Origin: a virus
Length of the DNA stretch: 62,103 nt
Reading direction: 5' to 3' (one strand)
Virus record (IMG/VR): IMGVR_UViG_3300034104_002314
Coordinates: 1-62,103 of that record
The notes beneath the pieces were generated by a model. That model saw only the letters and a list, made by a program, of their open reading frames with translations. It did not search any database and was not told where the DNA came from. This document shows positions 8,227-21,844 of the stretch, in pieces; within the stretch, counting starts at the first letter, position 1; the number at the start of each line of letters is the position of its first letter. The position numbers were made by a program, and so were the translations under genes.

Positions 8227-11200
8227 ATGGCAAAGATTCAAGATACGTCACAAACTAAACCTAGTAGTTTTGTAAAAGGTTTAAATAAAGATTCAGATCC
8301 TACATATATTCAAGAGGGTATGTGGACACATGCCCGAAATGTTGTAAATAATACTGTAGAAGGTGAATTAGGTTCATTATCTAATCAACCATCAAATTTT
8401 AAATGTCCTTCTGCTTTTCCTCCAGGGATTACAATGCCACAGTTTGCATCATTATTTAAAAAAATTACATCAAGATATGTTATAGGTGCAATACATTTAT
8501 TTTCTGATAAGTGGATTATATTTACTGCTGGACATAACTCTACCGGTCAACCTGCAATGTCAGAAATAGGATTACTTGAAGAAGAAAGGTGCATATATAG
8601 ACCTATTGTACAAGATGCTTGTTTAGGTTTTGATAAAAGATATTTAATATCTGGTGCTGCTAGATTAGTACAAGATTGTTCCTGGCAAGTATATTGGGCT
8701 GATGGATTGAATCCTGACAGATACTTGAATATTGGTGATCCCCAAACTTGGCCAACAGAAGATTTTATATGGGCATTAAATTCTTATGTTCCTGCACCAA
8801 ACTCTCCTACTACATCAATTACTCAAGTAATATATGATGCTAATGTAAATTATTATGTTAATGCAAATGGAGAACAAATACTTTGGCCGGGTGTACAGTG
8901 GGTAGAAAATTGTACAGAACCTGTTGATTCAGATGGTGATGGTGAGCCAGATCCATCATGTGTTTTCTGTACACAGTTTAATTCTTTAGATTGTATTCAT
9001 ACAAGACTAGCCAGAATAATAAAAACTCCATGTCTTAAGGTTAGACTTGGTGATTCAGGTGGTACCCTTAGAAATGGAACCTATTTTGCTACACTAGCAT
9101 ACAGTATTAATGGTGTAAAAGTATCAGATTATTTTTCACCAAGTAATAGCCAACCTATATGGTATGATAATGATCTTCAAGGATCATTGGTTATTGAAGT
9201 AGAAGCAGATACTGAAAACTTTGATGAGTTTATACTAGTGATTGTACAAAATATAAATCAAGGTACTGTAGCCAGACAAATTGGTATATACTCAACTAAA
9301 ACCAAAAGGATAGAGTTAGATCAAATAAAAGAAGATCTTATTTCAGTACCAGTTCAGTTCCTACCAGTAGTAACTCCAATAGTAGAAAAGTCAAATCAAA
9401 TTGGAGAAGTAAATGATTATCTACTAAGAGTAGGTACCACATCTAAATTTGATTTTAACTACCAACCTTTGGCAAATCTTATTCAAACTAGATGGGCCTC
9501 TGTTAAATATCCTGCAGATTATTATGTTAAGGGAGGAAACAAAGGTAGTTACATGAGAGATGAAGTATATGCTTTTTTTATACGCTGGGTATATGATACT
9601 GGAGACAAATCTGCTTCATATCATATTCCAGGAAGAGTTGAAAGAGATTATAAAATAAATGGTATTAACTATCCAGAAACTACGGATTGGTTAGATAGAA
9701 ATACTCTTGCCCAAAGTGATAGATTATTTGAAGTATATAATACAGCTGGTGCATTCTCAACACATCCTTTAATAGGAACTACAACTGATGATGGGGGAAC
9801 TGTTATTGCAGTAGGAGATATGGGTTATTGGGAGTCTGAGGAAAAGTATCCAGATAACAAACCTGATGTATGGAATGCAAGTGCAAATTGTTGGACTGCT
9901 GTTCCTATTGATCCTGTGTCAGGTTTACCTATATCAGATCCATCTTATGATTTATGTGGTCAACACATAAGGCATCATAAGTTTCCAGATAACTATTTAA
10001 ATGCTGATACTCTTCATTTTGAAAGTAGTGCTAATTACACCACCTTTGGTAGTAATCTCAATATAAGAATAATGGGAGTCTTTTTTGAAAACATAATTTA
10101 TCCAAAAGATAATTATGGAGAAGACATACCTGGTATTGTAGGTTATGAAATATTAAGAGGATCTAGAGAAGGTAACAAGAGTATTGTTGCTAAAGGTATG
10201 ATTAATAACTTTAGAAGTTATGAAATAAGAGGTAATGCTAAAAGAAACAAAACAGGTCTTTATGCTAACTATCCTTTTAATACAATCAAACCTTCTACTA
10301 ATTTAGGTGGTACGTGTATTTTTGGACCTTCATTATTACCTTGTCACAATAGAGGCTTTAATGATCCTTATATAAAACTTCAAGATCCAAATGATCCTGA
10401 CAAAGTTTTTGATCAAGTAGTTCCCAAAGAGATAGTATCTTTTCACTCTCCTGATACAATGTTCAGAACACCATTCTTATCATTTACAGAACTAAAAATT
10501 TATGGTCATTTACTTGGTGTATCAGATCAACAATTTAAAGAACCTGATAGACATCCAAAATGGAAATTAATATCAGATGAAGCTAAAACTATAATGTATG
10601 TCTTAGGTATTGCTGAAGCTGCTTATTCATTTCAAGGAAAGTATATTGTCAATGAACCACCAGCACAACCTGCAACTACTAATGCTCTTGCTTCAGTTGG
10701 AGCACCTGCAGCTCTTGCTGCTTATCAGGGTGCTGTTGAAGTTTATGAACAAGCAATGATAACATACTTTGCAACTGGTTTAGCACTTGTTGATAGTGTA
10801 GCAATGGCTTTTTCAGGTATCAGGCCTTTTTATGAATTTTTTATTTTTTCTGCTTATGACGCAGCTGTTGGAACTGCAGCAGCAGCAGGTATAGTTACAC
10901 CAAGCCCAACTGAATATACAAGAGAACTTCCTAAATGGGCTTATCTTGATCCCGTATCAAGAGCACTTGGTGGACTTAATCAGTTTTTATTTTACTTTAG
11001 TGAGGGTGTAGATATTGCTTTAAGAGGAATATATGCTGCAGTAAAATGGGATCAGTATGCATTACAAATGATTGCACATGGTTTCTATGGAGGCTTTGGT
11101 GCAAATAAAATTACAGATACTGTTAGATTTAGAATTGAAGATAGTACATATTTAAGAGATAACATTCTTGAATTACCAAGATATCAACTAAACAACCAAA

Positions 11201-13845
11201 CATACAATTATAGTATAAATAATCTTAAAAGATCTGACACAGCAGTATTAAGAACAAACTGTGGAGTTCAACAAAATAATCCAGATAAAGGTCCTGCATA
11301 TATAACAGCAAATAACCAAAGTATATACTTAGATCAAAGTCTTCAAACTCTTGGAACTTTGAATTCAGGTTTTGCAGAATTCCCTACTACAGCAGCATTA
11401 AACTCTATTCCAAGTTATACTGAATTTGACAGACCATTTTCAATGAGAATTGCAAGTCATTATGCTGCGGTAAAAGTAAGACTGGGTAATCAGTATGGTC
11501 AGTTACAATCTACATATCAAAGTATAAAACAAATAGTAATTACACCTTGTGAACAAAAGATTGGAATAGCAGGTAATATCTTTAATCAATATACAACAAG
11601 TGGTATATGTTATGATGAACAAGTAAAACAACGTAAACTTACAACAACACCATTATTATTTGGTGGAGACATTTTTATAAATAGATATACAGAAAAGAAT
11701 TCTATGTTCTTTTTTTATGATTGGTTATATGGACAACCTGATGGATTTGAATATAACTATGCCATAAGAAACATGATTCCTTTTGCAAGATTTTATGCAA
11801 ACTCACAAAGATTTGATTCATCTGATTTATTAGGCTTTTCTGGATCTGGGGATACAGCAGTTCCTCAAGCAACAGGAACAAGTCCCACTGACTTTTATAA
11901 CTTAGATAATGAAAATTACAGTCTAGGTACGGATGATCCAAAACCTTATCCAGGAATATTCAGACCAAAGAACTCTTATTTTTATCTAGCTAATTCTTCC
12001 GTAAGAGATTTCTTTGTAGAATCTGAAGTACTTGTAGACTTTAGGATTGACGGAGACTATGAATGGGAAAAGAGTTATAACCCATATAAGTATACAGACT
12101 TAGTATCCATGTTTAATATGGATCCTCAGATAATCACTAGAGGTAATGAATATAGATATGATTACTCTTTAAGTATCTCCAAACTATTTACTAATTACTT
12201 TTCATATGGTACTTTACAAAGTAGGTACTATGATCCTAAAGTAGCTTCACTTTGTTACACATATAATCCAAATAGAATTATATATTCCTTACAACAAGCT
12301 GATACAAGTTACAGAGGAGACAACTGGTCAATATTCTTAGCTAATAATTATAAAGACTTTATTAGTGAGGTCAGTGGTATTAAACAAGTAAATAAGAGTG
12401 GTTTATTTATTACATTTAAAAATGATAGCCCATTAATGTTCCAAGGAGTTGATCAATTACAAACTGATCTTGGTACTAAACTTACTATAGGTGACGGAGG
12501 TTTATTTAGCCAACCAGGCCAATCTGTAACTAATGCAGATAAAACTTATGAGTATGGTTCATCACAGAATAGACTTTCTGTAATATCATCTCCTGCAGGT
12601 ATTTATTATATATCCCAAAACCAAGGTAAAATATTTAGTTATGGTGATGGTATAAAAGAAATATCACAGAATGGTTTAAAATGGTGGTTTAATAATTTCC
12701 TACCATATAAGCTAACTATTGACTTCCCAGATTATCCATGGAATGACAATCCTGTAGCAGGTATTGGTTGTCAAACATTATATGATAATGAAAACTCTGT
12801 ACTATACTTTACCAAAAGAGATTATAAATTAAAAGATATTTTCAAAGGAAGGGTGGAATATGTGCCTCTTAATACTGAACCAAAAAAACCTTTTAGTTTT
12901 GGAACATTGTACAGAAGGCAAGGTGACTTTTTCCTATTAGATGGTCAATCTAAGTATCTACTTGGTGATCCTTTCTTGTTTGATGATGCTTCTTGGACAG
13001 TAAGCTTTGATCCTAAAAATGAATTCTTTATTTCATTTCATGATTGGCATCCTGATTTAACTATACCTACTAAAGTAAATTATCTTACAACCAAAACTGT
13101 AAAAGAAACATTCAATGGTACTCAACAGTTAATGGCCAACATATGGAAACATGATACTAATCCGGGTGGATCATGTGGTACTTATTGTAACTTCTATGGT
13201 GTGGACTATCCATTTGAAATAGAGATACCGGTTACAACAGGTCAAACAGTAACTACAATTAAATCTGTAGAGTATATACTAGAGTGTTATAAAAGATCTG
13301 AGTATAACTGTTTTGACCAGTATCATGTACTTGATTTTAATTTTGACAGAGCTTTAATATATAATTCAGAACAAGTTTCTGGATACTTAAACCTAAACTT
13401 ATTTCCAAAAAACAATGTAGCTTTAAGTTTACAATATCCAAGACCTAATCCATCTTTATCTGTAGATCCAACATATTTACCAGTTCCAGGATATGATATA
13501 TTATTTTCTAAAGAAGAAAATAAATATAGACTTAACCAATTCTGGGATATAACAAAAGATAGAGCTGAGTTTCCAATTGGTTCAGGTTATCCTCCACAAG
13601 GACAACTTATTCCTGGAACAACTCAACTTTTAGGCAACTATGATGAAAGACAAATATGGGAAACAGGACCTAGTGGATATAGAAGAATTCTTAATCAAGC
13701 TAACTTAGATTATGTAAAACCACTTTTACAAAGAAAGAAGTTCAGACATTATTTAAATTTCCTAAGTTTGTCAAGAATGGTATCAGGTAATGTGAATATG
13801 ATATTTAAAATATCTAATATTAAAAACCAAGTATCTTTAAGGTAA
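8227..13845 (+). CDS. Tail nozzle/muzzle protein (T7 gp12 / P22 gp10-like role), 1872 aa
   Basis: The N-terminus (FVKGLNKDSDPTYIQEGM, then ARNVVNNTVEG, GELGSLSNQP) is the opening typical of phage tail nozzle/tube B proteins, which begin with a segment preceding a beta-propeller. The body is long, beta-rich and aromatic, with many Tyr, Asn and Gly residues. A more helical, Ala-rich island lies near residues ~790-900 (AALAAYQGAVEVYEQAMITY). It ends with basic helices (LQRKKFRHYLNFLSLSRMV). Size and position after the ring genes match the muzzle protein of crAss001, which closes the tail channel. The stop and the next start overlap as TAATG. A tail-spike role was considered less likely because of the N-terminus. 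Confidence 0.65.
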   Translation: MAKIQDTSQTKPSSFVKGLNKDSDPTYIQEGMWTHARNVVNNTVEGELGSLSNQPSNFKCPSAFPPGITMPQFASLFKKITSRYVIGAIHLFSDKWIIFTAGHNSTGQPAMSEIGLLEEERCIYRPIVQDACLGFDKRYLISGAARLVQDCSWQVYWADGLNPDRYLNIGDPQTWPTEDFIWALNSYVPAPNSPTTSITQVIYDANVNYYVNANGEQILWPGVQWVENCTEPVDSDGDGEPDPSCVFCTQFNSLDCIHTRLARIIKTPCLKVRLGDSGGTLRNGTYFATLAYSINGVKVSDYFSPSNSQPIWYDNDLQGSLVIEVEADTENFDEFILVIVQNINQGTVARQIGIYSTKTKRIELDQIKEDLISVPVQFLPVVTPIVEKSNQIGEVNDYLLRVGTTSKFDFNYQPLANLIQTRWASVKYPADYYVKGGNKGSYMRDEVYAFFIRWVYDTGDKSASYHIPGRVERDYKINGINYPETTDWLDRNTLAQSDRLFEVYNTAGAFSTHPLIGTTTDDGGTVIAVGDMGYWESEEKYPDNKPDVWNASANCWTAVPIDPVSGLPISDPSYDLCGQHIRHHKFPDNYLNADTLHFESSANYTTFGSNLNIRIMGVFFENIIYPKDNYGEDIPGIVGYEILRGSREGNKSIVAKGMINNFRSYEIRGNAKRNKTGLYANYPFNTIKPSTNLGGTCIFGPSLLPCHNRGFNDPYIKLQDPNDPDKVFDQVVPKEIVSFHSPDTMFRTPFLSFTELKIYGHLLGVSDQQFKEPDRHPKWKLISDEAKTIMYVLGIAEAAYSFQGKYIVNEPPAQPATTNALASVGAPAALAAYQGAVEVYEQAMITYFATGLALVDSVAMAFSGIRPFYEFFIFSAYDAAVGTAAAAGIVTPSPTEYTRELPKWAYLDPVSRALGGLNQFLFYFSEGVDIALRGIYAAVKWDQYALQMIAHGFYGGFGANKITDTVRFRIEDSTYLRDNILELPRYQLNNQTYNYSINNLKRSDTAVLRTNCGVQQNNPDKGPAYITANNQSIYLDQSLQTLGTLNSGFAEFPTTAALNSIPSYTEFDRPFSMRIASHYAAVKVRLGNQYGQLQSTYQSIKQIVITPCEQKIGIAGNIFNQYTTSGICYDEQVKQRKLTTTPLLFGGDIFINRYTEKNSMFFFYDWLYGQPDGFEYNYAIRNMIPFARFYANSQRFDSSDLLGFSGSGDTAVPQATGTSPTDFYNLDNENYSLGTDDPKPYPGIFRPKNSYFYLANSSVRDFFVESEVLVDFRIDGDYEWEKSYNPYKYTDLVSMFNMDPQIITRGNEYRYDYSLSISKLFTNYFSYGTLQSRYYDPKVASLCYTYNPNRIIYSLQQADTSYRGDNWSIFLANNYKDFISEVSGIKQVNKSGLFITFKNDSPLMFQGVDQLQTDLGTKLTIGDGGLFSQPGQSVTNADKTYEYGSSQNRLSVISSPAGIYYISQNQGKIFSYGDGIKEISQNGLKWWFNNFLPYKLTIDFPDYPWNDNPVAGIGCQTLYDNENSVLYFTKRDYKLKDIFKGRVEYVPLNTEPKKPFSFGTLYRRQGDFFLLDGQSKYLLGDPFLFDDASWTVSFDPKNEFFISFHDWHPDLTIPTKVNYLTTKTVKETFNGTQQLMANIWKHDTNPGGSCGTYCNFYGVDYPFEIEIPVTTGQTVTTIKSVEYILECYKRSEYNCFDQYHVLDFNFDRALIYNSEQVSGYLNLNLFPKNNVALSLQYPRPNPSLSVDPTYLPVPGYDILFSKEENKYRLNQFWDITKDRAEFPIGSGYPPQGQLIPGTTQLLGNYDERQIWETGPSGYRRILNQANLDYVKPLLQRKKFRHYLNFLSLSRMVSGNVNMIFKISNIKNQVSLR

Positions 13846-14396
13846 TGAAATATAAAGTAGCTAAATCTAAAATCCCAAATGCAGATAAAGGTTTATTTGC
13901 AAAGAACCCAATTAAGCAAGGTGAAAGAATAGGTCTTGCACATAAACAAGGTCAACCTGTAGGTACACTGGGTAATATGCATAATCACTCTGATGAGCCA
14001 AATATGCATAGTGTTAAAGTTGGTGATAAAAGATATGTGTATGCCAAAAGGGATATTAAACCTGGGGAAGAACTGACTACTAATTATAGAATGCAATCTG
14101 AGTTAGAACAACCTGAAGACTTTATGCGTAAGGGGGGTAGAACAAGAGGATTAGTGCAAATGCCTAAGCCAAGTAAGAAAGGTTTAGCATCTAAGAAGTA
14201 TTCTAGAAGTCTTGAAGCAACAAACAGACTGTTTACAGAAAACAGATTGTTTAAAAAACCTAAGTCTAAAAAGAATAAAGTATTTGATCCTAATGCAAGA
14301 TACTACCAAGGTGGAGGTTATGTAGACCTGGAATTAGATGCTGCTGAAATACAAAAATATATTGACGGTGGTTATGTAGTAGAAGCACTTGATTAA
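13845..14396 (+). CDS. SET-domain protein (putative protein-lysine methyltransferase), 183 aa
   Basis: Residues 5-82 form a compact SET domain: SKIPNADKGLFAKNPIKQGE (8-27), then the cofactor-binding NHSDEPN (47-53), then YAKRDIKPGEEL (66-77) and the NY with the putative catalytic Tyr81. SET enzymes transfer methyl from S-adenosylmethionine to lysine. No pre- or post-SET cysteine cluster is present. Residues ~85-150 are basic (KPSKKGLASKKYSRS). The C-terminus (YYQGGGYVDLELDAAEIQKY, then DGGYVVEALD) resembles the tail of the next gene, implying the protein may belong to the virion. It overlaps the nozzle gene by TAATG. The target is unknown; a host or phage protein modified during assembly or entry is possible. 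Confidence 0.75.
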   Translation: MKYKVAKSKIPNADKGLFAKNPIKQGERIGLAHKQGQPVGTLGNMHNHSDEPNMHSVKVGDKRYVYAKRDIKPGEELTTNYRMQSELEQPEDFMRKGGRTRGLVQMPKPSKKGLASKKYSRSLEATNRLFTENRLFKKPKSKKNKVFDPNARYYQGGGYVDLELDAAEIQKYIDGGYVVEALD

Positions 14397-14442: not shown

Positions 14443-17400
14443 ATGAAGAAAAAAGTAAGAATTTACAAAGCTCCAGATGGTAAAGGAAAATTTGTAAACA
14501 AAACTGCAAAGTTTTTACATAAAGCACAAGAAGGTGGTCAACAAGATCAACAAGCACAGATAGCTGATTATGTTTATAAAACATTAGCTAACACTGATGA
14601 GCTTGATATGGAGATGATGAAAGATACTCTCATAGGTGAGTTAGTATCTGCTAAAATTCCTATGGATCAAGCTGAGCAAATGGTAGAAAACATTGCTGCT
14701 AATTTTGAAAGTCAAGAACCAGTTCAAGAACAGGAAGAAGAAATGGATGTCTATGATGAAGGTCTGGCAGAATTACAGCGTCAACAAGAAGAAGCTGAGG
14801 AAGAGAGATTAGCAGGCTTATCTGAAGATTATGGTTATTATGATGATACAGCTGCAGATGGTGAGGATGATGAAGATGATGATGACGATGATATACCTGA
14901 AGAAGCTTACATGCAACAAGGAGGTGATATAATTCCTGAAGATAATGCTGTAAGCTTTACTGGATACTATCCTTTTCAATATAACAGAGACAAACAAACT
15001 TCTTATCAACAAGGTGGTATTACAAAAAGAAAGTACATAGGTCAAGTAATGAAGTTACTTAAGAAACAAGCTGGAGGTGAAGAAGAGAAACCTTCTGCTG
15101 GTTTTGATCCTACTGATACCATGGATAACAAAAAGAAAAATAAAAAGGACAACTTTGTTGCAGCTCTTGCCAATTCTGCTCAAGAAGCTAAAATGAAAGA
15201 GCAAGCTGAAGCTATGTGGGAACAACAGCAACAGCAAATGATGCAGCAACAAACTCCTATGCAACAACAACAGTTTGCTCAGAACGGTGCTGAAATAGGT
15301 GGTGGAGATATTATATATGGAGCAACAGAAGAGGAAAAAGAAGAATGGAGAAGGAATAATGGGCCAAACTATTATCCAGAAATGTCAATAAGCCAAGCAA
15401 GAAGTATGAGTCCAAGAGGTTTTAGTAGAAACCAAATGAGATCATTTGCAGGTATGGTGCCACAGGGTGGATTCTTTCCAATGGGTATGAATATTATGAC
15501 ATATCCTCAAATGGTAATGCCGGAACAAAAACCTATACATGTTCAAGGCACCCTTCCAGGTATGAAGTTAGATGTAAGAAAATCACATTGGCTTACAGGA
15601 AGACCTTCTCAATATTCTATTGAGTTTGGTGGTGACTTTGCTATACCTGGATTTAACATGATGCCGGGTAAAGGTTATGGTAGTAAATCTACTCAAAGAA
15701 AAACTATAGAAGGTGTGTCTAGATTAGTAAATAAAAAAGCTGATCCTGGTAAAAACAATACTACAGTTTTAAATAATAATCCTGAGTATGATAAAGATGG
15801 TAACGGTGTTCCTGATAATGTTCAGAGTAATATAATACCATCAACTCCTGGTATACCTTCTGCATATGATAGAAACGCAAATAACATGTTGGATGTAACT
15901 GAAGTTAAAACAAATCTTCCAGCTGTAAATAAAAATCCTAATAAAGATGCCGTAGGTAAAGGAGCTAAAGTACCTACTAAAACTCAAACTAAAAAAACAG
16001 TTACAGCTACCAAATCAAAACAGGCTGGTCAAAATAAACCTGCAGCATCTTCAGCTAAAGTAACTAATAAAGGAAAAGCAACTGTTACTAGTTCTGATCT
16101 AATCAACAAACAAAAAAAATCAGGTTGGTCAAATAGTGTAACTGGACCAGGAGCAGGATCTTCAACATATGATTTTGTACCAAACTGGGTGAAAAGTGTT
16201 GTTGATAATAATCAGGCTAGAGATGCTGAAAATGAAAAACTTTTAGACTATTTTTTAAACAGTAAATCACCATTACTAAAACAACAAAGTGGAGGTTTTG
16301 TAGATAGTTCAAATCCAGATTTATATAAGTTTGTATATGGTGGAGATGATGTTATCACACAACAAGATATGAACTATTCTGATTCTAGAAATACAGGTAG
16401 CCCTTTCTTTGCTCATGGTGGTTTAGTTCATTATCAAAAAAAGGGTGAAGTAACAGAATATGATAAGGATGGTAATGGTGTACCTGATCTTGTTGAAAGA
16501 ACACCTGGTAAAAATCCTGAAGAGAAAAAAGAAGAAAAGAAAAAAGATGAGCCTAAAAAACCCGAGTTTCAAGCTATCACATCTAAAGAAGATTATGATA
16601 AGAGACTGGCTGAGGAAAGAAAAAAATGGCAAGAAGATTATACAAAACAAAATCAATCTTCAGATGATGTTGGAGGATATGACCCGTATGGAGGATATGT
16701 TCGTAGAAGTTATAGACCAAATGCTTTTGGTAGATATTTCCCAGCCAACACAGTAAGAAGATTAGGTACATGGTCTCAACAACAAGGGATGCCTTATGAT
16801 CCTAGAACAGGTGCAGGATACTTTGGAGGCTTTGGACCCAACACTAATCTTACAAAAATTGATGTAAGAAAATCTGGATGGTTATCTGGTAGACCTAAGA
16901 AGTACACTATGTACTTTAATAATTACAATGTTGATCCCAAACTAGCTGCATTTTTAGAAAGTACAAGTGGTGCTAAACCAGGTACTCAACCCTCTTCAAC
17001 ACCTAGCTATCCAAATACCTCTCCAACATCTAGTAATTCAGACACCCCTTCAAATAAAGAAACTCCTGAAAGAGAGTTTATCTTGCGGTTTAATCAAAAA
17101 AATCCTGAAACCAAAAATGAAGAAGCTAATTATGGACCTTCTGCTGAAGAAACTGCTGCAAGAGATGCTGCTACTGAAGCTAACAAAGGTGTTATAAGAA
17201 ATTTCTCTGAGGTTGAGGGTGTACAAGATGATCCATTTGGTATTGGTATGGGTGGTCCAAGTGAAGAGCCTTCAGACTTTGAAGAGTCAACACAAACATA
17301 TGATTCTCCTGAAGCTGCTAATGAATATGTTCAAGGTGAATGGGGAGATATAATGACAGATGTTTCAGAAGTTTTAGGTCCTGAGTCTCAACAAGAATTT

Positions 17401-19056
17401 GATCAATTCTTAGCAACCAATCCTAGTAAAGGGGCAATAGATGCTAAGATTGAAGACTTTATGCGTCAGAGAAATCAGGCAATAGGTAAAGATGCAGAAT
17501 CAGTTGAAAGAAATACTTTAACAGCAGATACTGAAGAAGAGATTATGAATCAAGAAGCAATGCGTAGAAATCCCATGTTCATGGGAAATTCCGGTGCTCC
17601 TGCTGCAAATCCAAACTTTGGTGCAACTCCTGAAATTGCAACTGGTAATGACTATCAACTGTCTGACAGAGAACAAGCACAGATAGACTACATGATGCAG
17701 AATAGAAGATCTGCTCCTGTAGATTTTCAACCTTATGTTTCTAGAAAGCCATCTGAAAATCTTGCTAATCTAGCCTATACTGATAGTTTACCTGCATTAC
17801 CAGCAACTCCTTTAGAAGCAGGTAATTATGAAGATATGCTTTTAAGTGGCTTTCCGCAATATACAGATGCCTTTGAAGGTGCTGCTTCTAATGATGAGCA
17901 ATATCTTCCAGGAACAATGGATGACATGAGTGAAGGTTCTGTAAGAAATAGAGAGATTGCTGCTAAACAAAAATATAATCAACAACAAGCTGCTATAAGA
18001 CAACAACAATTATTACAACAACAAGCTTCATCTGGTGCTGGAAACTCTAAAACTAATTCCGCTACAAGTAATGATGCACCAAAAGAAAAAGCATTTAATT
18101 CTAATAGACAAGCTAAACAGTCTGGTAACTGGACTGATGACTGGGATATTAAAGGTGTGATAAATAAAAACAAAAATCAATTGGAAACTTTAAAAGACTC
18201 ACCAATTGGTACTAAAACATCATATGCAATTGAAAAAAAATGGGAAAACTTATCTAATGCACAAAGAAAAAAATATAAAAACTTTAATAACTTTTTAAAA
18301 ACAGAAGGTTATGATAAATTTTATAATGCAGTAAATTCAAAACAATTCGGTGGTAATGCAAACTTAAATAGATTTGTCTATGGTGATGAAGTTACTAAAA
18401 CTTCAACAGGAACAGACAGCCCGGTATCAAATACAAACAATCCAATAAATCCTTTTCTCCGTTATGATTCTGCTGGCAAACTTGTCATACCAGGTTTTGG
18501 TGAACCTGAAGAGAACAAAAACCAAGACTTAAAGACTACATTAAACTACTATGAAGGATACGGTCAAGGTGATGAGTTTAGTGCTGCTCCTGCTGGTAGT
18601 GCATCTACTATGGATGAATCAGGAAATGAAATTGTTATGTCCCCAGATGAAGCCAGAAAAAAAATTGCTGAAAATGAATTTGCGGTAGACTTCAAAAACA
18701 AAGATACTTATGAAGTAGATGCACAAGGTATGCTATTATCAGGTAATGCTGGTGCTAGAGGTATACTTGACTTTTTTGAAAGAAGGGATGAAAAAAGAAG
18801 AAATAAAAACTTTAATGATAGATTTACTGCAGACAATCTTTATGCTTCTGATCCTAGTAGAGATCGTGGTGACTATGATACTAATACTGGTTTATACAGA
18901 CCTAATGAACAAGGTCAGATATGGAATAGCAGATCTAAACAATTAGGTGGTTTTATGCAAGAAGGTGGATATGCAGAGGGTGATGTAGTTGACATGACTC
19001 CAGAAGAACTGGAAGAATTTATTGCCAATGGTGGTGAAGTAGAAATTATAAGTTAA
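14443..19056 (+). CDS. Large low-complexity virion (cargo) protein, 1537 aa
   Basis: The sequence is rich in Gln, Glu, Asn and Lys, with acidic runs (DGEDDEDDDDDDIPEE near residue 145) and Gln/Met runs (QQQQQMMQQQ near 265). It has no hydrophobic core of an enzyme. Internal repeats are visible: DVRKSHWLTGRP (from ~377) and DVRKSGWLSGRP (from ~807); EYDKDGNGVPD at ~448 and ~672, an Asp-rich calcium-loop-like motif; and YKFVYGGDDV and NRFVYGDEV later on. Gly-Gly segments recur (QQGGDI, QQSGGF, FAHGGL). The end (GGYAEGDVVDMTPEELEEF, then NGGEVEIIS) resembles that of the SET protein. A flexible internal or ejected protein is inferred. It is 5 bases from the next gene. Confidence 0.6.
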   Translation: MKKKVRIYKAPDGKGKFVNKTAKFLHKAQEGGQQDQQAQIADYVYKTLANTDELDMEMMKDTLIGELVSAKIPMDQAEQMVENIAANFESQEPVQEQEEEMDVYDEGLAELQRQQEEAEEERLAGLSEDYGYYDDTAADGEDDEDDDDDDIPEEAYMQQGGDIIPEDNAVSFTGYYPFQYNRDKQTSYQQGGITKRKYIGQVMKLLKKQAGGEEEKPSAGFDPTDTMDNKKKNKKDNFVAALANSAQEAKMKEQAEAMWEQQQQQMMQQQTPMQQQQFAQNGAEIGGGDIIYGATEEEKEEWRRNNGPNYYPEMSISQARSMSPRGFSRNQMRSFAGMVPQGGFFPMGMNIMTYPQMVMPEQKPIHVQGTLPGMKLDVRKSHWLTGRPSQYSIEFGGDFAIPGFNMMPGKGYGSKSTQRKTIEGVSRLVNKKADPGKNNTTVLNNNPEYDKDGNGVPDNVQSNIIPSTPGIPSAYDRNANNMLDVTEVKTNLPAVNKNPNKDAVGKGAKVPTKTQTKKTVTATKSKQAGQNKPAASSAKVTNKGKATVTSSDLINKQKKSGWSNSVTGPGAGSSTYDFVPNWVKSVVDNNQARDAENEKLLDYFLNSKSPLLKQQSGGFVDSSNPDLYKFVYGGDDVITQQDMNYSDSRNTGSPFFAHGGLVHYQKKGEVTEYDKDGNGVPDLVERTPGKNPEEKKEEKKKDEPKKPEFQAITSKEDYDKRLAEERKKWQEDYTKQNQSSDDVGGYDPYGGYVRRSYRPNAFGRYFPANTVRRLGTWSQQQGMPYDPRTGAGYFGGFGPNTNLTKIDVRKSGWLSGRPKKYTMYFNNYNVDPKLAAFLESTSGAKPGTQPSSTPSYPNTSPTSSNSDTPSNKETPEREFILRFNQKNPETKNEEANYGPSAEETAARDAATEANKGVIRNFSEVEGVQDDPFGIGMGGPSEEPSDFEESTQTYDSPEAANEYVQGEWGDIMTDVSEVLGPESQQEFDQFLATNPSKGAIDAKIEDFMRQRNQAIGKDAESVERNTLTADTEEEIMNQEAMRRNPMFMGNSGAPAANPNFGATPEIATGNDYQLSDREQAQIDYMMQNRRSAPVDFQPYVSRKPSENLANLAYTDSLPALPATPLEAGNYEDMLLSGFPQYTDAFEGAASNDEQYLPGTMDDMSEGSVRNREIAAKQKYNQQQAAIRQQQLLQQQASSGAGNSKTNSATSNDAPKEKAFNSNRQAKQSGNWTDDWDIKGVINKNKNQLETLKDSPIGTKTSYAIEKKWENLSNAQRKKYKNFNNFLKTEGYDKFYNAVNSKQFGGNANLNRFVYGDEVTKTSTGTDSPVSNTNNPINPFLRYDSAGKLVIPGFGEPEENKNQDLKTTLNYYEGYGQGDEFSAAPAGSASTMDESGNEIVMSPDEARKKIAENEFAVDFKNKDTYEVDAQGMLLSGNAGARGILDFFERRDEKRRNKNFNDRFTADNLYASDPSRDRGDYDTNTGLYRPNEQGQIWNSRSKQLGGFMQEGGYAEGDVVDMTPEELEEFIANGGEVEIIS

Positions 19057-19061
19057 ATATA

Positions 19062-21290
19062 ATGAAAGTTAGAATTAAAAAAGTACCACAAGCCAGAACA
19101 GGTTATCAAGTACGTGGAGCTTTAGCCAATGATGTGCCAGCAATGGGTGGTGCAGACTATGATGGCTATGCATCAAAAGAAACTAAATTTAATAGAACAC
19201 TCAAAGCTGTACCAAGAGAAGAAGCTAATCTTGAAGCAGAGGGTAATGAAACAGTAATGATGAATACAGGTAACATACCTGCATTTTATACTATTAAAGG
19301 ACCAAGACATGCTCAAGGAGGTGTTCCATTAAATTTACCAGATGATAGCTTTATCTACAGTGATTTTAGAGAAATGAAAATAAAAGATCCTGATCTGTTG
19401 GCTAAGTTTGGTAAATCTGTAAAAGGAAAAACTGCATATACTCCTGCTCAGTTATCTAAACAGTATGATATAAATAAGTACAGACAGATATTGCAGAATC
19501 CAGATTCAGATGCTATAGACAGGAAGACTGCAGAGATAATGATCCGTAATTATAACATGAAGTTAGGAGCATTAGCTTTAGCACAAGAAGCTAAGAAAGG
19601 ATTTCCTCAAGGTATCCCTGCTGTAGCTAAACCATTTATGGAAGCTAATAAACTTTCTGAGGCAGATTTTATACCACAGGAAGAAGAAGCAACAGAACCT
19701 GGAATGGAAGCAGAAGGTGAAGAGATGATGGCAGAAGAAGGACAAGCTCCTGAAACAATGCCTGATGGATCTCCAGTAGCTATGCCACAAGGAGAACCTA
19801 TGCCAGAACAAGGCATGATGCAATATGGTGGATATCCAATGACCATGTATGGTATGCAAATGGGTGGTTATGCAATGCCATTCTACAATGACCCTAATCA
19901 AATGGCTTACGGTGGTGTACCAAGATTTGATAATGGTGGTAAAATTACTGGTGAAGCTTTAAAGAAGAAAGCAGCGGGTAAAAAAGCAACAACTGTTAAA
20001 GAAGTAGGAAAAGATTATGAAGACATTGGTGGTGGTAAATATGCTAAAGGTACATACTCAAAATCTGCAGGAGAAAAAAAACAATATAATAAATATACTG
20101 GAAAAGTTCAAAAACAAACACCACAACAAGTGGAAGCTTATTTAGATGGTGTTTGTAATAGAATGAAAAATGGTGATTTGCAAAATTACACTGCAGAAGA
20201 ACTAGCTGGTGAATTTTTTGATAAGTCTTATATAGAGAGAATGAGAGCCTGTGAAACAAAAACAGGTGAAGAAAAAGAAGATATTGATGTAGTTCAACTT
20301 GAAGAATCAACACCTGTTAATGAACAAGAATGTGAGTGTACATATCCAGATGGTAGTACTGAACGTATGCCTAAGAATGCTGATGGTACATGCCCTCCTT
20401 GTAAAAAAGAAGTTGAAGAGGAAGGAGAATACTATGAAGAACCAATGGTTGAACAAGATGGTTATGCTCCTTGGTGGTTACAAGATACTGTAAATACTAT
20501 GGGTGCATTTGGAGATTTAGCAAGTATTAAAAAATATATGCCGTGGGCTGCTAATGTTGATCTTGAAGAACCAAGACCTACATTCCTAGATCCTACAAGA
20601 GAGTTAGCTGCTCAATCTGAACAAGCTAATATTGCCGCTCAAGCTTCAGGAGCTTTTGCAGGCAATGCTCAACAGATGGGTGCTAGACTAGCAAATATAC
20701 AAGGGCAGGGTGCAGCAAGCGCAGCAAATACTTTATCTAACATTAATAACCAGAATGTTGGTATAGCAAATCAATTTGAAGGACAACAAGTTGGAATTAG
20801 AAATCAAGAACAACTTATGAACCAGCAAATTGCTAATGACTTATATGATAAGAATGTTATTGCTAACCAACAGTTTGACAATGCTAAAAGACAAGCTGCA
20901 CAAAATCTTAGACAACAGTATAATACTGCTGTTACTAATAGATGGAAAACAGATGCAATGAATCAATTGTATCCTGACTATGCTGTTGATCCTTCTACCG
21001 GTGGTCAAATGTACTTTAATCCTACACCAAAAACACCAAATCCAACTAGACCTGAACAGAGTGATATTGAGTATGTAAGAAGTCTAGAAGAAGCTAATAT
21101 AGACAAAGATATAATTGGTAGAATGGTATCAGCACGTATGAGAGGCTCGGGTGGTGGTGGAGGAAATGACGGACCGGATCCTAATATTGCAGCACAGATG
21201 TATGGTAATAGACAAAGAGGTGGATATGTAGGATATCTTCAGAATGGTGGTTATGTCTATGCAGATACAATCTTTCCTTTTATTATGTAA
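19062..21290 (+). CDS. Conserved crAss-like virion protein, 742 aa
   Basis: Residues ~53-125 carry the recognisable core: EEANLEAEGNETVMMN, then IKGPRHAQGGVPLNLPDDSF, then SDFREMKIKDPDLLAKFGKS. This block recurs in proteins at the same place in crAss-like genomes and has no known enzyme activity. A Glu/Met/Gly-rich linker follows (~205-300), then a Cys-containing segment (CECTYPDGSTERMP, CPPCKKE). A long Gln/Asn/Ala-rich helical region spans ~510-640 (AANTLSNINNQNVGIANQFE). The C-terminus is RGGYVGYLQNGGYVYADTI. A packaged or tail-lumen protein is the likely role. The HNH endonuclease gene follows after 59 bases. Confidence 0.6.
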   Translation: MKVRIKKVPQARTGYQVRGALANDVPAMGGADYDGYASKETKFNRTLKAVPREEANLEAEGNETVMMNTGNIPAFYTIKGPRHAQGGVPLNLPDDSFIYSDFREMKIKDPDLLAKFGKSVKGKTAYTPAQLSKQYDINKYRQILQNPDSDAIDRKTAEIMIRNYNMKLGALALAQEAKKGFPQGIPAVAKPFMEANKLSEADFIPQEEEATEPGMEAEGEEMMAEEGQAPETMPDGSPVAMPQGEPMPEQGMMQYGGYPMTMYGMQMGGYAMPFYNDPNQMAYGGVPRFDNGGKITGEALKKKAAGKKATTVKEVGKDYEDIGGGKYAKGTYSKSAGEKKQYNKYTGKVQKQTPQQVEAYLDGVCNRMKNGDLQNYTAEELAGEFFDKSYIERMRACETKTGEEKEDIDVVQLEESTPVNEQECECTYPDGSTERMPKNADGTCPPCKKEVEEEGEYYEEPMVEQDGYAPWWLQDTVNTMGAFGDLASIKKYMPWAANVDLEEPRPTFLDPTRELAAQSEQANIAAQASGAFAGNAQQMGARLANIQGQGAASAANTLSNINNQNVGIANQFEGQQVGIRNQEQLMNQQIANDLYDKNVIANQQFDNAKRQAAQNLRQQYNTAVTNRWKTDAMNQLYPDYAVDPSTGGQMYFNPTPKTPNPTRPEQSDIEYVRSLEEANIDKDIIGRMVSARMRGSGGGGGNDGPDPNIAAQMYGNRQRGGYVGYLQNGGYVYADTIFPFIM

Positions 21291-21349: not shown

Positions 21350-21844
21350 ATGGCAAAATTACTCTTTTTGGGAAATGATACATATACAGAAGTAGATGAT
21401 GAAGATTATTATTGGTTAAGTCAGTGGAACTGGAATGCTGTAGCAATTAAAAATAGATTATATGTAAAAAGAAGTAAAAAGAAAGCACTTCTTAAATCTG
21501 GTGTAAAGTATGAAATTTTTTTACACAGAGTGATAATGAAATGTACAGATCCTGGTTTAGTTGTAGATCACATAGATAATAATCCTTTAAACAACAAAAA
21601 AAATAATCTAAGGATATGCACTAAAGCACAAAATAATAGAAATACATCTTCACACAAAGACAGTAGTTCAAAATACCTAGGTGTTACATATGATAAAGCA
21701 AGAAAAAAATGGAACGCACAACTAATGGTAAATGGCAAAAGAGTACTAACAAAAAGATATCCTACTGAAATTGAAGCAGCAAAGGCTTATGATGCAGCAG
21801 CAATAGAACATGTAGGTCAATATGCAAATTTAAATTTTAAATAA
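21350..21844 (+). CDS. HNH homing endonuclease with C-terminal AP2 domain, 164 aa
   Basis: The HNH_3-type site is plain: LHRVIM with His59, VVDHIDNN with Asp73-His74, then LNNKKNNLRICTKAQNNRN with the conserved Asn residues (82, 86, 95). The AP2 DNA-binding domain fills residues ~105-164 (SKYLGVTYDKARKKWNAQL, then TEIEAAKAYDAAAI and a closing YANLNF). This pair is the standard build of free-standing phage homing endonucleases, which cut alleles lacking the gene and promote their own copying. It sits alone between two virion genes, 59 bases after one and 2 bases before the next, with no intron core recognised around it. It is a selfish insertion rather than part of virion assembly. Confidence 0.9.
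   Translation: MAKLLFLGNDTYTEVDDEDYYWLSQWNWNAVAIKNRLYVKRSKKKALLKSGVKYEIFLHRVIMKCTDPGLVVDHIDNNPLNNKKNNLRICTKAQNNRNTSSHKDSSSKYLGVTYDKARKKWNAQLMVNGKRVLTKRYPTEIEAAKAYDAAAIEHVGQYANLNFK

Follow-up and report, generated by a model that had tools for sequence, protein, structure and literature searches.

The stretch of DNA analysed here (the window, 62,103 nucleotides) makes up by itself the IMG/VR virus record IMGVR_UViG_3300034104_002314, an uncultivated contig. An ORF for tail ring protein 1 (PF24228, E 4.1e-12) precedes the muzzle ORF, and the TAA of the muzzle ORF overlaps the ATG of a SET-domain ORF by one base, in keeping with the coupling to the nozzle gene proposed in the first-pass annotation. 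The features of this region are as follows.

8227 to 13845, plus strand: crassvirus muzzle (nozzle) gene (PF25731, E 1.9e-27)
13845 to 14396, plus strand: SET ORF, putative cargo, 183 aa (SET, Lys-rich module, C-terminal tag)
13845 to 14090, plus strand: mini-SET domain, residues 1-82 (Pfam, AlphaFold, Foldseek, vSET alignment, invariant residues)
14091 to 14138, plus strand: post-SET stretch MQSELEQPEDFMRKGG, ending in a GG junction; family-specific, pLDDT 51-68
14139 to 14312, plus strand: Lys-rich module, residues 99-156, ...MPKPSKKGLASKKYSRSLEATNRLF...PKSKKNKVFDPNA... (HMM; near-constant with or without SET)
14301 to 14318, plus strand: YYQGGG junction, an instance of [FYM]QxGG
14313 to 14393, plus strand: putative C-terminal cargo tag GGYVDLELDAAEIQKYIDGGYVVEALD, 27 residues (tag HMM, iE 9e-14)
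14443 to 19056, plus strand: second putative cargo ORF (1537 aa), rich in Gln and Gly and bearing QxGG motifs
18940 to 19053, plus strand: tag-like C-terminus of the second ORF (FMQEGGYAEGDVVDMTPEELEEFIANGGEVEIIS)
19062 to 21290, plus strand: third ORF, with MMQYGG and GMQMGG motifs, probable cargo

An ORF with HNH_3 and AP2 domains (21350 to 21844, plus strand) sits between cargo genes and is probably a free-standing homing endonuclease within the virion block.

A Pfam profile search with the SET ORF gave a match to PF00856 with E 1.5e-12 and 48.3 bits (cut-off 22.4). Among solved sequences, the best match of a 30-member SET profile was PBCV-1 vSET (E 2.3e-8), with profile positions 3-82 aligned. 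AlphaFold modelling from a 9-row alignment gave a pLDDT of 85-95 over residues 1-81, and a 30-row alignment gave a mean pLDDT of 84, with about 90 at residues 1-81 and 51-68 beyond. Foldseek with this model ranked vSET (3kma) first (TM 0.67 to the query), and the top matches were exclusively SET/PR domains with probability 1.00. A chance match to SET is ruled out by the profile score, the vSET profile match, the model and the structural search. By homology, the ORF encodes a SET-type fold and a minimal protein-lysine methyltransferase with predicted catalysis; the SET domain that had been proposed here, as well as its place in the virion block, is thus supported. A SAF domain match (E 1.5e-4, 16 residues) lay inside the SET core and was taken as fortuitous. 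A genome scan for a cellular source of the SET domain returned one weak partial match, in Paraglaciecola.

In SET enzymes, contact with SAM is made by the N-H of NHS, and the last motif supplies the catalytic tyrosine. The mini-SET domain contains a GxG-type K15-G16-L17, N47-H48-S49, P52, E76 and, at the catalytic position, Y81, and the four motifs named in the first-pass annotation (NHS, PN, GEEL and NY) were all found. The alignment of 30 SET relatives, which reaches down to 42% identity, showed that S8, G16, G30, H33, G43, N47, H48, P52, R63, E76, T78 and Y81 are invariant, and so are Q84, L87, E88, Q89 and P90 of the post-SET stretch with its LEQP motif. The proposed motif set therefore holds for NH, P, E76 and Y81, but not for the S of NHS (S49) and the N of PN (N53), which vary; as the variation falls on other residues, the SAM-contacting N-H and the catalytic tyrosine are left untouched. 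The dN/dS of the SET domain was 0.03-0.2 in the pairs tested, and the domain is under purifying selection.

Relatives of the locus were collected by scanning IMG/VR with the SET protein, which gave 15 and then 51 loci, and by a search with the muzzle C-terminus, in which the best 80 of 564 loci were kept and 55 were non-redundant; the frequencies given below hold for this sample of relatives nearest by muzzle and metagenomic contigs. The result showed that the one-base overlap with the muzzle opens the next ORF in 54 of the 55 non-redundant loci (from the best 80 of 564). In this slot directly after the muzzle, the same 55 loci carry SET in 10 cases, the tag in 47 and the Lys-rich module in 47. 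SET-less slot proteins begin with a leader instead. In crAss-like loci, the SET ORF adjoins the muzzle and is usually the first module of a longer protein of 632-1757 aa; the window's slot protein, with SET, Lys-rich module and tag, is the shortest form. The slot itself persists while its contents are swapped, the slot protein being a mosaic, and the setting of the SET ORF counts for more than the SET domain itself.

Exchange was also seen on the muzzle tree, where the presence of SET requires 8 changes, at least 7 of them forced by well-supported branches. SET has thus been gained or lost at least 7-8 times, indicating that it is an exchangeable module, and a single origin of SET in the slot is not supported. 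In addition, comparison of the window with the locus L002 gave a dS of 0.26 in the SET part and 1.37 in the adjoining Lys-rich part, a contrast that points to exchange. Pfam searches of the slot ORF family and its relatives identified further payloads, namely Amidase_2 (E 1.6e-16), Phage_lysozyme (E 3.6e-4, slightly short of its cut-off), ART-PolyVal (PF18760, E 6.6e-13), GNAT and peptidoglycan-binding (PG_binding) domains, and fusions of SET with lysozyme, amidase, ART and GNAT were present in slot relatives.

The slot protein at L021:10001-14341 combines SET, an HExxH-like motif and ART-PolyVal, and is a good candidate for a full polyvalent crassvirus effector. By eye and unscored, the slot ORFs of L022 and L023 contain, between GG junctions, a small module resembling HAD phosphatases (VSFDYDDTLT) at about residues 235-330 and, farther along, one resembling a Zn ribbon.

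The C-terminal tag has the consensus LTxxEIxxYxxGGYxVEExD. When the tag HMM was run over 1497 ORFs of the loci, matches were confined to the slot ORF and the following ORF; in the L031 locus two tagged ORFs stand in succession. A second survey (best 80 of 564) showed that 40 of 42 complete slot ORFs are tagged, 30 of them at the exact C-terminus, and that 7 tagged ORFs lie outside the slot, all downstream of it. Among the ORFs searched, the tag thus recurs exclusively in those for cargo. Long slot proteins have 2-3 tag copies, the last of them C-terminal (in L023 at 584-609, 999-1024 and 1731-1757), a pattern that would fit head-to-tail fusion of tagged proteins. In most relatives, the window included, a variant of the tag, MTxEExxxFxANGGEVEYL, closes the second ORF. 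The resemblance between the C-termini of the SET protein and the next protein, noted at first pass, held in a shuffling comparison, in which 4 of 2000 shuffles scored as high. The second ORF of L038 and L043 terminates in the standard tag (E about 1e-11). A tblastn search for the tag in cultured phages gave no matches; in the cultivated Leptolyngbya phage Lbo-JY46, the second ORF after the muzzle ends in the variant EEIDLSPEEVAKLIELGYDFEVV, which matches the window's second ORF (iE 0.002). The slot is hypervariable yet recognisable, with a common tag, and effectors could therefore be found by the tag alone.

The motif [FYM]QxGG was counted against composition-preserving shuffles. The result showed 27 instances against 0.8 in 20 slot ORFs and 31 against 1.3 in 18 second ORFs, for a motif derived from the same ORF1/ORF2 sequences, which are related and not independent. 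In the controls, 20 muzzles had 2 instances against 1.1 in shuffles, and the window's other ORFs, with that at 19062-21290 set aside, had none. Borders of slot modules often coincide with the motif, whose role may be that of a joint, a binding site or a cleavage site. Within their loci, GG motifs were most enriched in crAss001 gp45 and phi17:2 gp41, which is suggestive only; for crAss001 gp45 the enrichment was the highest in its locus at p 0.07, and no claim is made from it.

The genes found at the equivalent position in other crassviruses bear on the fate of the slot protein. In the Cellulophaga phage phi4:1, the depositors annotated two proteins as structural on MS/MS evidence: gp041, whose gene lies immediately downstream of the muzzle gene, and gp040, encoded next. 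The counterpart of gp041 in phi17:2 contains a tail lysozyme domain (PF18013, E 9e-32). SET-less slot proteins have a leader with weak similarity to the beginning of phi4:1 gp040 (40% over 62 residues, E 0.02). In crAss001, the muzzle is followed by gp45 and gp46, both virion cargo, and the resolved part of gp45 lies at the portal and within the tail (PMC10172136). The phi4:1 virion proteins and the demonstrated crAss001 gp45 cargo support a packaging reading. We consider it fairly probable that SET is one module of a polyvalent-type protein of the crassvirus cargo slot, and that this protein is packaged, ejected and, early in infection, methylates a protein of the host or the phage; position, tag and homologues favour a virion-carried SET protein acting at entry, and packaging in this phage, an uncultivated contig, would follow by analogy.

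In the proposed mechanism, the slot protein would be translated in coupling with the muzzle, as the one-base overlap suggests, and would be packed into the tail or capsid through its near-constant Lys-rich module and C-terminal tag. It would then be ejected through the muzzle along with the DNA and other cargo, and in the first minutes of infection the SET domain would draw on host SAM for methylation of lysines in a protein of the host or the phage. The bacterial host has no H3; RNA polymerase, nucleoid or ribosomal proteins are plausible as targets, though any choice among them is arbitrary. The first-pass proposal that a structural protein, the polymerase or a host protein is methylated during entry may hold. 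A tentative extension, which we regard as rather doubtful, is a crassvirus cargo code composed of the tag, with its second-ORF variant, and [FYM]QxGG, in which the tag would direct proteins to the tail or capsid, QxGG sites would separate modules or be cut for their release, and SET would be a vSET-like entry effector reprogramming bacterial transcription or the nucleoid through lysine methylation.

Another possibility is that SET methylates the phage's own cargo or virion proteins at assembly, for example the joined Lys-rich module (KPSKKGLASKKYSRS), and thereby tunes packaging or unfolding during ejection. This module directly follows SET in most SET-bearing slot ORFs (e.g. 1-97 then 102-157), and its HMM matched 47 of the 55 slot ORFs and no ORF outside the slot in that survey (best 80 of 564). 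However, although all 10 SET ORFs carry it in near-constant form, SET-less ORFs have it almost as often (37 of 45; Fisher p 0.33; best 80 of 564), and there are other phages that have this SET subfamily but lack the module. These data imply that the module is independent of methylation, and its role as an obligate SET substrate is not supported; we regard methylation at assembly as unlikely.

The SET fold might instead be a non-catalytic docking or SAM-sensing domain, another structural module of the cargo protein. SET-I normally forms one wall of the substrate site of SET enzymes. The profile alignment showed that this region is about 21 residues shorter in the phage family than in vSET, and the post-SET lid is poorly modelled, so that a complete substrate groove is only presumed for the phage SET, as are the pseudoknot and the SAM pocket. 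However, G16, N47, H48 and Y81 are invariant across 30 divergent sequences from unrelated phage contexts and dN/dS is low, and a non-catalytic role appears improbable, more so than methylation at assembly. That SET is an ordinary, unpackaged auxiliary gene, placed after the muzzle by chance and with the tag as a structural cap, is very improbable: SET genes do occur elsewhere in phages (beside baseplate gp25 in cyanophage P-RSM6 and in non-crAss contigs), but over the 55 loci (best 80 of 564) the slot with its one-base overlap and tag persists whether SET is present or absent, and the equivalent phi4:1 genes encode virion proteins.

Other phage SET proteins were also found, and the earlier description of the domain as unusual in phages was overstated. 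Two PHROG families of unassigned function (phrog_28741 and phrog_34170) match the SET ORF, the structural matches include several 'SET domain' proteins of uncultured Caudovirales, and annotated SET proteins exist in uncultured phages and many giant viruses. In cyanophage P-RSM6 (NC_020855.1, 132178-132477; L064:5956-6255), a 99-aa SET protein annotated as hypothetical adjoins the gp25 baseplate wedge gene. Members of the same SET subfamily, with the LEQP motif and 43-71% identity to the window, occur in contigs with no adjacent muzzle (L012-L014, L039-L058, L047, L061). In these contigs, SET mostly lies in the C-terminal part of proteins of about 450-744 aa, several of which start with MKxIIKES- or IIREEL-like leaders; by eye only, these look similar to T4-type sequences for capsid targeting and (I/L)xE cleavage.

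Crassviruses belong to the most abundant phages and, to our knowledge, their injected proteins beyond polymerases are largely uncharted. The locus places a SET lysine methyltransferase, with predicted activity, among the likely injected crassvirus enzymes. SET proteins annotated in phages and giant viruses, and polyvalent proteins as a class, are already known; the cargo setting and the tag of the SET protein appear to be undescribed, and a search of the openly licensed literature turned up nothing on SET in crAss-like phages or cyanophages.

Comparison with known systems showed that the other phage SET proteins (phrog_28741, phrog_34170; P-RSM6 CPXG_00131; BFVD A0A218ML49 and A0A6J5PTS6) share the SET fold and differ in genomic context; that of P-RSM6 is similarly small and its 'LGLSH' stretch resembles 'IGLAH' of the window's SET, but no tag was seen in it. 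The SET gene lies directly after the muzzle like the crAss001 gp45/gp46 and phi4:1 gp041/gp040 cargo genes, whereas crAss001 gp45 has no SET domain and no clear tag, and no sequence relation between it and the SET protein was detectable. Polyvalent proteins are mosaics in which disparate enzymatic domains are combined, and their injection along with phage DNA has been predicted (Iyer et al. 2017, PMC5512222); the main text of PMC5512222 does not mention SET domains or crAss-like phages. Slot relatives combine several disparate domains in one polypeptide, and one of them bears ART-PolyVal (PF18760), but the window protein has one enzymatic domain only. Specific to the present group are the slot coupled to the muzzle, the tag at the C-terminus and the QxGG motif. 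The nearest solved protein, by both profile and fold, is PBCV-1 vSET (A612L; PDB 1n3j, 3kma), likewise a small viral SET domain. PBCV-1 virions contain vSET, which methylates H3K27 and has been linked to the early repression of transcription in the host (PMC7019647, PMC3946773). The phage SET, 21% identical to vSET over the Foldseek alignment, differs from it in its size of about 80 residues, much shorter SET-I, LEQP post-SET motif, and Lys-rich module and tag, and it faces a bacterium without nucleosomal histones. By analogy, the phage SET protein would thus be a bacterial-virus counterpart of the virion-packaged vSET and, if this is true, particles of bacterial and of giant algal viruses alike contain SET enzymes that serve at entry.
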